A DNA stretch of 64,000 nt from Pleurocapsa sp. PCC 7327. Lineage in GTDB: Bacteria > Cyanobacteriota > Cyanobacteriia > Cyanobacteriales > Microcystaceae. The position numbers and the translations under genes are program-made. A model generated the notes under the pieces. The model made no database searches. It saw only the letters and a list, made by a program, of their open reading frames with translations, and was not told the DNA's origin. Within the stretch, counting starts at the first letter, position 1. Every line of letters starts with the position of its first letter. The stretch lies in assembly GCF_000317025.1 (NCBI RefSeq), contig NC_019689.1, positions 2,643,501 to 2,707,500 on the forward strand, read 5' to 3'. Below are positions 11,069 to 55,201 of this stretch, piece by piece.

Positions 11069-11146
11069 TAGTTATTCAAAACATCAAAGTTTTGAACTTT
11101 GTAGATCGTGGATATCATAAAATGCTAGTAGCTTGGGAGTAATACC

Positions 11147-11187
11147 TATTCGCAATTGGCAATTATTAGTTCGCAATTAGTCAGCAG
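11147..11187 (-). repeat. Dispersed AATTGCGAA-type repeat, copy A
   Basis: Read on the minus strand this runs CTGCTGACTAATTGCGAACT followed by AATAATTGC-type units. The same sequence with few changes occurs at 54395-54437 on the plus strand, and related runs occur at 19968-20013. Two of the three sit next to a MITE copy. Confidence 0.6.
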
Positions 11188-11218
11188 ATCTCTGAGTAAG
11201 GCTTTTTCATTGAGCATC

Positions 11219-11373
11219 CTGGTTGACTGACAAATCTTTGTCCCCCCATCCCTAAATCCCTTCTCCCACAAGGGGCGAAGGGACTTCAGGCCAAAGTCTT
11301 AAGTGGAAAGCCCCTCTCCCGCTCGGGGAGCGGGGTTGGGGTGAGGGCGATTTGAGTTTTGTCACTCAACCAG
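11219..11373 (+). mobile_element. 155-bp MITE, copy 1
   Basis: A non-coding element with 16-bp terminal inverted repeats: CTGGTTGACTGACAAA (11219-11234) against the reverse complement of TTTGTCACTCAACCAG (11358-11373), one mismatch. It is flanked by a perfect 9-bp direct repeat, TTGAGCATC at 11210-11218 and 11374-11382. A second 155-bp copy lies at 54237-54391. The interior carries four G runs at 11325-11347 (G4, G4, G4, G3 with loops of 2-3 bases) that overlap a CCCCTCTCCC/GGGGAG hairpin. It occupies the gene-free 11069-11536 interval together with the adjacent repeat. The mobilising transposase is not in the window. Confidence 0.85.
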
Positions 11374-11536
11374 TTGAGCATCTGTAGCGTTCTTTTTTAG
11401 AAATGGTATAAATTCCCAAGATAACAACACAATTCCTCTGAAGAGGACTTTGTTGATTGGCCAAGAAATGAATTTTTTGGCGGGTAAGAGGTTTTTGCAA
11501 AAGATTTAACGAGTTTTTGTAACTATTTATGATGCG

Positions 11537-16985: not shown

Positions 16986-17357
16986 CTAAATGTAATTAAT
17001 GTAACTAGCTTTAATTCGTCGCCCCTGAGGGCAAGCGAAGCACCGCTACTGCTTGCTAACTTGCCCTCGTCTTCTAGCTCGATTTTTCAATCATAATATA
17101 ATACGATTGAGACTGAATATTAATTGTAGTGCGATACTTTTTTTCAATAGATCGACAGATCGACCTATTTTGAGAGACTGAATGATAATGTAGGGGAAAC
17201 TTACATGCAAGGCAAAGGGAGAACGCGATCGCGTAGTTTGCCCAAAAAACTATCATTTTTAAACCAATTACAAAAATTTTCAATCCGATATCGCAATTAC
17301 TTTTATCATTGATTCTCACAAATTAGATTTTTATAAACTTAAGGGTACTATCTTGTT
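16986..17357. other. Intergenic region with one long-stem hairpin
   Basis: GAGGGCAAG (17027-17035) pairs with CTTGCCCTC (17060-17068), with GCAAGC/GCTTGC offering an alternative inner pairing. It sits just after the AAA-like gene and could end transcription, though no T tract follows. The remaining about 290 bp up to 17357 are A+T-rich; an 81-codon minus-strand frame there (17074-17319) has no RBS and no family resemblance. Confidence 0.45.
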
Positions 17358-28619: not shown

Positions 28620-29541
28620 GACCTCCTGCAAAAGTGTTACGCGATCGCATAATTGGAGTGGGAAAGAAGTTCATAATTATAAATGCCAGCAATCAAATTA
28701 AATCTCAACCCAAACCGTCTTCTTCGGTTGCGATATCGACTTGAAAGAATTCTGAATATTTTTAGACTGCGATGAATATTTTCAATTACAATCCTTTCAC
28801 TTGCTAACTTACGATTAAACTTCTTTTGCTCTAGACTTAACTGTTGATTGCGCTTTTTTTTGTTGGGAATTCTACTGTTGGGATGAAGTTTCTGAATTCC
28901 TTGATATCCTTTATCAGCCAAACATTCTATCTGTTGTTCGATTCCTATTTTACTATTTTTCCAAATCTTAAAATCATGACTTTTTCCCTTCTCATGAGCA
29001 ATACAAAGAATTTGTCTCGTTTTTGCGTCAGCTAAAACTTGCGATTTTATCGTGTGACACTTTTGCCGACCACTGTAGTAAGCTTTTTGTTTTTTTTCGG
29101 TCTTTCTATTTCATGTTCTGCTACATCTACTACGACAATTTCAATTTCTGTATTTTGGGGTTGAACAGCTTTTTTCCCAGGCAGATTGAAAAGTCCCGAT
29201 TTCATTAAAATATCTTCTACTTTTCTGGTGATTCGTAAAGCCGTTGTCTCGTTTATTCCCCAGCTAGTTCCGATATGAAAATAGGTGCGATACTCTCGCC
29301 AATATTCAAGAGTCATTAAGATTTGGTCTTCTGCGCTTAATTTATTTGGTCGTCCTGTTTTTTTTTTGTAAGACTTTTTCGGCTTCTAGAACTTTTACCA
29401 TCTCTTTAAACGTCTCTGGATATACTCCACAAAGCCGTTTAAACTCTGTCGGTTTTAAATTTTTTACTTGAGAGTAAGTCATAACTCGAATTGTAATTTG
29501 GTTTTATTTTACCTAACTTACTCTGACTTTTGCTGGAGGTC
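28620..29541 (-). mobile_element. IS5-family insertion sequence nested in the IS630 element
   Basis: Terminal repeats GACCTCCTGCAAAAGT on the left (from 28620) and GACCTCCAGCAAAAGT as the reverse complement on the right (to 29541) differ at one base. TA flanks both sides (28618-28619 and 29542-29543), a plausible 2-bp target duplication. The length is about 922 bp. It lies upstream of the IS630 transposase start, so it arrived after the IS630. Confidence 0.8.
28637..29482 (-). pseudogene. IS5-family transposase in three frames
   Basis: Frame 1 runs from ATG 29482 (MTYSQVKNLKPTEFKRLCGVY) to an A10 run at 29358-29367; one base fewer there joins frame 2 (TGRPNKLSAEDQILMTLEYW, first Asp in VVVDVAEHEIE). 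An A5 run at 29084-29088, read with a -1 slip or one more A, joins frame 3 (AYYSGRQKCHTIKSQV, second Asp in LADKGYQG, Glu in VIENIHRSLKIFRIL). The second site, AAAAACAAAAAG, could be programmed -1 frameshifting, known in several IS families; the first needs +1 and looks like damage or error. Confidence 0.75.
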
Positions 29542-54209: not shown

Positions 54210-54236
54210 CCAGAACAATTGACAATAGAGCTGCTG

Positions 54237-54391
54237 CTGATTGACTGACAAATCTTTGTCCCCTCATCCCTAAATCCCTTCTCCCACAAGGGGCGAAGGG
54301 ACTTCAGGCAAAAATCTTAAGTTGAAAGCTCCTCTCCCGCTCGGGGAGAGGGGTTGGGGTGAGGGCGATTTGAGTTTTGTCACTCAACCAG
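54237..54391 (+). mobile_element. 155-bp MITE, copy 2
   Basis: Same element as 11219-11373. The left end is CTGATTGACTGACAAA (54237-54252), the right end TTTGTCACTCAACCAG (54376-54391), and a perfect 9-bp duplication GAGCTGCTG flanks it (54228-54236 and 54392-54400). G runs lie at 54343-54365. The target duplication differs in sequence from copy 1, so the two are independent insertions. Confidence 0.87.
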
Positions 54392-54394
54392 GAG

Positions 54395-54437
54395 CTGCTG
54401 ACTAATTGCGAACTGATAATTGCGAATTGTGAATTGG
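54395..54437 (+). repeat. Dispersed AATTGCGAA-type repeat, copy B
   Basis: CTGCTGACTAATTGCGAACT and onward, matching the reverse strand of 11147-11187 with few changes. It overlaps the right target duplication of MITE copy 2. Confidence 0.6.
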
Positions 54438-54439
54438 TA

Positions 54440-55201
54440 TTACCACTCTAACTGGGCAGGCGCTTTCTTAGTCTCGTTGCACTGTATTTTAATTATTTCA
54501 CCGCTGCGCATAGTAATCACTCGATCTGCCATTGCTGCAATCCCGGCATTATGAGTAATGACCGCAGTAGTCGTTCCCAATTCCCGATTGACTTTCTCTA
54601 ATACTTCTAAGACAAGCTTTCCTGTCTGAAAGTCTAATGCGCCTGTCGGTTCGTCACACAATAAGACTTGCGGACGTTTGACAATGGCACGAGCGATCGC
54701 AACTCTTTGCTGTTCTCCCCCTGATAGTTGGGCGGGAAAGTGATTTAGTCTTTCGTCGAGTCCTACTAATCCTAGCGCTTCTCTAGGGCGCATCGGACGA
54801 GTCGCAATTTCGGTGACGAGGGCGACGTTCTCTAATGCGGTTAGACTAGGAATTAAATTGTAGAATTGGAAAACAAAACCCACATATTCTCGGCGGTAGT
54901 AGGTGAGGGCGCGATCGTCTGCCTTAGTGAGATCCCAGTCGCGGAATTTTACTTGTCCCCCGGAAGGAATGTCGAGTCCTCCGAGAATATTCAACAGAGT
55001 TGACTTTCCACTTCCGGAAGGACCGAGTAAGACGACCAATTCTCCTTCATAAAGGTCGAGAGTAACCGATTTAAGTGCCTGAACTTTCACTTCTCCCATT
55101 TGATAGGTCTTGCTAACATCGCGCATTTGGAAGATGGGAGATTGGGAAGTGGCGATCGCGCAAGGATTTGCGCTCGATGGCTCGTTGCTGCGATTGCCCA
55201 T
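54440..55201 (-). CDS. ABC exporter ATP-binding protein, LolD/MacB type
   Basis: 253 aa. Walker A is [16 protein letters not shown], the Q loop is [17 protein letters not shown], the signature [14 protein letters not shown], Walker [13 protein letters not shown], and the H loop AVITHNAGI. An N-terminal extension of about 28 residues comes before the core. It should energise the two-FtsX permease encoded downstream on the same strand; the Uma2 gene and the MITE lie between them. All catalytic motifs are intact. Confidence 0.95.

Follow-up and report, generated by a model that had tools for sequence, protein, structure and literature searches.

Many bacteria carry the intrastrand triplex motif (TM/PIT), a G/C-rich folding motif (Holder et al. 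2015, PMC4666352). In that study, NMR of E. coli TM single strands favoured a triplex over a quadruplex, in-vivo footprinting gave no support for a stable triplex, and the motif in E. coli had no link with mobile elements; triplex formation itself has been published for E. coli sequences alone, and for these in single-stranded form. Cyanobacteria have their own described short non-autonomous MITE, Nezha (Zhou et al. 2008, cited in PMC10969869).

The window, a stretch of 64,000 nucleotides from Pleurocapsa sp. PCC 7327, holds two copies of a 155-bp element with the ends of IS4-family ISs. Judged from its sequence, the interior of this element is better read as two inverted units of the published motif TM/PIT (Holder et al. 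2015, PMC4666352). We are confident in the joint reading of the element as a non-autonomous MITE of the IS4 transposase family that carries TM as a passenger. The interior units share with TM/PIT of E. coli the stem, the position of the loop and the GGGGTGAGGG third strand, and adjacent units on opposite strands, like the pair in the MITE, are on record in E. coli too. The difference is that the E. coli motif is described without a mobile-element link, whereas here TM is carried by MITEs that have terminal repeats and target duplications.

The preliminary description of this DNA knew of no named family with this combination of features. Each part now has a counterpart, the interior in TM/PIT (PMC4666352) and the ends in an IS4-family element, but their combination in a MITE is undescribed in the literature searched. 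Among the papers listed, titles and abstract openings in the open-licence literature contain no description of a link between MITEs and TM or G4, or of an IS4-type cyanobacterial MITE, and the passages of PMC2246112 and PMC10969869 that were consulted describe no such MITE. The MITE and its IS partner are themselves ordinary.

Ends, copies and insertion scars of the 155-bp element

Copy 1 lies at 11219-11373 and copy 2 at 54237-54391, both on the + strand. As first described, each is 155 bp long and the two are flanked by differing perfect 9-bp duplications, TTGAGCATC at 11210-11218 and 11374-11382 around copy 1 and GAGCTGCTG at 54228-54236 and 54392-54400 around copy 2. The left terminal inverted repeat of copy 1, CTGGTTGACTGACAAA (11219-11234, + strand), is identical to the ends of full-length IS4-type ISs; the right one (11358-11373) reads CTGGTTGAGTGACAAA on the - strand. 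The 16-bp inverted ends noted earlier exist but are imperfect, being complementary at 15/16 positions in copy 1 and 14/16 in copy 2, and an inverted-repeat search delimited the inverted end of copy 1 as 19 nt at 89%. End-like 16-mers with three or fewer mismatches occur ten times in the window against 1.7 expected, and none of 100 shuffles reached ten. A short repeat, TAATACC...GCAATTAGTC, seen by eye, adjoins both copies in opposite orientation (11140-11182 and 54400-54442) and might belong to a further dispersed element.

Rfam contained no match for the 155-bp element at gathering scores. Elsewhere in the window, a match to SL2 RNA (17085-17190, - strand; 42.4 against a gathering score of 41) is probably due to chance, since we take SL2 to be a nematode RNA.

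The copies are far more than the two in the window: the family occupies at least 46 places in the genome, including these two. A search of the single contig of 4,986,817 bases gave at least 40 places, the best 40 of 58 first-look candidates having been scored, and the surroundings of further end matches added three alignable copies together with one interrupted copy, one 62-bp derivative and one partial copy. The total is thus 43 alignable copies and three that are interrupted, deleted or partial. The 62-bp derivative (L075, G000:C1:2001029-2001090) retains both ends and 8/9 duplication bases, with most of the interior gone. The sister species (G002, taken as Hydrococcus rivularis NIES-593) has the element in at least 41 places, including the site of window copy 2 and leaving out three short matches; the copy numbers are lower bounds, with 40 candidates scored per genome. 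The right-end pattern was found at 11 loci of a named genome collection, all in Hydrococcus rivularis NIES-593, in a scan outside which the host genome may lie, and it had no match in viral contigs. Pairwise difference among 35 near-complete copies, which are the 43 aligned copies minus 8 with a damaged end (minus 9 in the conservation table), averages 10.3% and ranges from 1.9 to 16.9%.

The differing duplications had been taken as proof of independent insertion, and other copies without target duplications were named as what would refute the description. This check was run on 35 end-intact copies, picked by a separate rule that both ends lie within 3 bases of the unit ends. With one-base shifts allowed, the flanking 9-mers agree at 8/9 positions or better in 30 copies and at 9/9 in 18, leaving five without a duplication at 8/9, and the same test applied 40 bases further out as a control gave 0/35. 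Most copies therefore keep a duplication, and the target sites have no strong consensus. A Hydrococcus copy, L119, supplies an empty site: its flanks map to G000:4495362-4496554 with alignments that overlap by exactly 9 bases, and the orthologous site in the Pleurocapsa genome is uninterrupted, with a single target copy that differs by one base. This is the one site examined in such a manner, and it is clean. Window copy 1 did not serve for this comparison and was set aside because another element, of a second family described below, occupies its site in the sister species. The duplications, set against the control, and the empty site bear out independent insertion. The element is too short for a transposase gene, has terminal inverted repeats, lies in multiple copies at unrelated sites and is associated with a target duplication of fixed length and an empty site, and these are the features of a MITE.

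Probable IS4-type partners in other genomes

A full-length IS with the same ends and a 9-bp duplication, which the preliminary description proposed to look for, was found in other genomes of the order but not in the host genome. The end 16-mer CTGRTTGACTGACAAA is present in 97 of the 388 genomes of the order, and the reversed pattern in 9. Fourteen end pairs are of IS size, mostly 1.2-1.5 kb (2.5 kb in L202); two of these lie at a contig end, and 12 could be tested for duplications. Perfect duplications flank eight of the 12, with lengths of 9 bp (L203, L210, L211, L223) and 10 bp (L202, L206, L209, L240) equally frequent at four each, and the other four have none.

These IS4-family ISs (NF033591; relatives on Synechocystis PCC 6803 pSYSM_M and Acaryochloris pREC4) share the 16-bp ends with 0-1 mismatch, and their 9- or 10-bp duplications are like the 9-bp ones of the MITE. 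They differ from it in their length of about 1.3 kb, in their transposase gene and in that no TM doublet was found in them, while the MITE lacks a transposase gene and has only its end bases in common with them, 16 to 24 in the seven ISs compared (24 at 92%). Relatives with these ends, again at 0-1 mismatch, are carried on plasmids of Synechocystis, Acaryochloris and Pseudanabaena. L211 has an open frame of 394 residues, which matches the NCBIfam model NF033591 (transpos_IS4_2) with 4.4e-41 and 141 bits, below the 152-bit cut-off, and Pfam PF01609 (DDE_Tnp_1) with 24.2, just above the cut-off of 23. Among PDB sequences, the IS transposase had no match at E <=1.

In the host genome we found no intact IS with these ends; the best relative of the transposase there is 23% identical and has three stops. 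That genome has 51 DDE_Tnp_1 matches, and the ends were found at two or fewer mismatches in none of 12 sampled loci; nor were they found in six loci fetched from among the matches. One of eight equal-scoring matches in the host genome is an IS in the window itself (28676-29101, - strand) with a DDE_Tnp_1 frame of 157 aa. The element thus has ends and duplication length in common with an IS4-type IS, and no source IS was found beside it in the same genome. A MITE does not strictly require a source IS in its own genome.

Because no intact source IS was found in the host genome, it is from the other genomes that we infer mobilization in trans. An IS4-type DDE transposase would have bound the 16-bp ends in trans, and the MITE would have moved by cut-and-paste, inserting at 9-bp staggered cuts. 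The source IS may since have been lost from the host genome, or may never have been fixed there. As the search with the transposase found one relative there, broken and 23% identical, the family is probably dormant in this genome, or was moved by an enzyme now lost.

Triplex-type units in the interior

The first triplex-type hairpin unit of copy 1, TM1 (11243-11284), has its G-rich strand on the - strand, and was recognised by a hairpin search and by-eye comparison with Table 1 of PMC4666352. The second, TM2 (11311-11348, + strand), has the order CCCCTCTCCC-loop-G-rich arm-TT-GGGGTGAGGG and contains the block previously described as a G-quadruplex. The corresponding units of copy 2 are TM1 at 54261-54302 (- strand) and TM2 at 54329-54366 (+ strand). 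Scored at fixed positions, and with A and T treated as interchangeable in the third strand, 36 of 41 copies (from 43 aligned) keep at least 8/10 stem pairs and at least 8/10 mirror positions, as the TM structure demands.

A search of the host genome for the TM core at three or fewer mismatches gave 45 matches, every one of them in a MITE or apparent fragment: 42 in listed family copies and one each in a damaged copy, an apparent fragment and a member of the second MITE family. The pattern was built from the family's own consensus, so that this confinement to MITEs holds for close matches, and a TM with another spacer, as in other second-family copies, would be missed. The reversed core gave 41 matches and is uninformative as a control, since reversing the pattern hardly alters it.

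TM appears to be a passenger with respect to movement. In a sample of 30 loci collected by the end 16-mer alone there are 10 MITE-sized end pairs, and TM is present in 2 of them; this is the fair rate, whereas the 20/30 seen among MITE-sized elements of other genomes is unfair because most of those were found through TM similarity. Two TM-free elements of MITE size with the same ends, L177 and L180, have 8/9 duplications, and of the 14 IS-sized elements L202 alone showed the TM stem pattern. A requirement of TM for mobility is ruled out by the TM-free elements with duplications and by the 2/10 of the ends-only sample.

The preliminary description proposed that the G-rich block is a G-quadruplex able to affect transcription or transposition. 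Its pattern, GGGG-N3-GGGG-N2-GGGG-N3-GGG, is indeed present in the two window copies, yet it does not characterize the family, occurring in 3 of 35 near-complete and 5 of 43 aligned copies. A generic G3+ pattern is more widespread, in TM2 of 21/35 copies and in TM1, on the other strand, of 24/35; over whole strands of the 43 aligned copies, it occurs in 27 on the + strand (TM2) and in 31 on the other (TM1). The quadruplex reading is nevertheless weak: 14/35 copies have no G3+ pattern in TM2, four conserved G runs were not found, and the run patterns across the 35 and 43 copies rule out G4 as a conserved feature, while stem pairs and mirror positions are kept in the great majority of scored copies. 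Folding of copy 1 as a single strand is better than that of its shuffled sequences (z -3.75), one of the 200 doing as well. Published NMR on the E. coli motif favours a triplex (PMC4666352), and target duplications also flank elements that share the ends and lack TM. A quadruplex is possible as a secondary feature, and a functional one acting on transcription or transposition is very unlikely.

Two further explanations concern the paired arrangement itself. REPINs also consist of two inverted hairpin units, and the doublet, with its tails outward, could be taken for a REPIN-like unit that a RAYT enzyme moves, in which case the outer repeats would be incidental. Similar TM units, mostly paired, lie on plasmids of other lineages, with tails outward in Vitreoscilla, Pseudanabaena and E. 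coli and in another arrangement in Azospirillum; in favour of this reading, none of 11 such plasmid loci has the MITE ends at three or fewer mismatches within the fetched stretch. In the host genome, the close TM matches are all in MITEs or their apparent fragments, and the terminal inverted repeats at fixed distance, the 9-bp target duplications and the exact empty site make REPIN-type movement scarcely credible; terminal repeats and 9-bp duplications are typical of DDE transposition and set the MITE apart from REPINs (PMC3116915). The paired hairpins might instead end transcription or insulate convergent genes and be retained for that reason, as convergent genes flank both window copies. Among 29 classified copies the neighbouring ORFs are convergent at 11, tandem at 13 and divergent at 5, from a sample of 30 of the 46 copies with 1.5-kb flanks, one of them at an edge, and with crude ORF calling; in the window itself, 10 of 51 gaps are convergent, 30 tandem and 11 divergent. 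The setting is, however, non-convergent at 18/29, the calling of ORFs is crude, and the purging of disruptive insertions would yield the same picture; none of the 30 copies examined (one at an edge) lies wholly inside a called ORF. Earlier work on the E. coli motif, cited in PMC4666352, had found it to have neither promoter nor terminator activity. We consider retention by such a function unlikely, and no regulatory role of TM or the MITE is shown here; the element is best regarded as an IS4-type MITE with TM as its passenger.

A second MITE family, a chimeric element and flipped loops

TM is also found in a second MITE family, whose 111-bp elements have ends TACCATTTTTC and one TM unit and are present in the host genome and in a related genus (L303-L332; G000:C1:3005220-3005330, 235987-236097 and around 3733184). 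Identical 3-bp flanks were found at 15 of 21 full-length copies fetched, all 15 being TNA, and in shifted controls at 7 of 210; at least two pairs of the copies look orthologous, so that the 21 are not all independent. A 3-bp duplication implies a transposase of another type. No partner IS was found for this family among 12 loci sampled. The two families meet in the sister species, where the site of window copy 1 holds a second-family element instead and the site of window copy 2 (L291, G002:C8) holds a chimera, in which the 155-bp MITE contributes its left half, together with the left 9-mer, and a TACCATTTTTC-family element contributes the right end, the two being joined at TM2.

These observations raise the idea that TM is a modular passenger, acquired separately by unrelated MITE families and then driving loop flipping and exchange between families, as at the chimera; we regard the chances for and against it as even. 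If true, it would help to explain the abundance of TM in cyanobacteria. The 155-bp MITE, which carries two copies of TM, suggests one route by which the motif can spread. With TM inside two types of MITE, for which there are insertion scars as well as an empty site, that spread can be tested as a question of transposition.

The loops of the hairpins vary in orientation. Taking the nearer form (copy L066 was assigned by hand), 29 of the 43 copies have a hairpin-2 loop closer to one orientation, and the other 14 have one closer to the reverse complement of that form; for hairpin 1, two of the 43 loops are flipped. Loop inversion can be caused by template switching at hairpins, for which cases in bacteria have been published (PMC8794818), and the flipped loops are consistent with such switching: TM gives strong hairpins, and template switching at these while the DNA is single-stranded would flip the loops. 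In the flipped loops and the chimeric element, nature has recorded how such structures may behave when DNA is replicated. On a tree from which the loop columns were excluded, the 14 flipped copies need at least 13 changes of orientation, compared with a mean of 12.0 for 200 label shuffles; 30 of its 40 inner branches are unresolved, and an unresolved tree would give the same result. On this tree, loop orientation is without family signal, as repeated flipping would predict.
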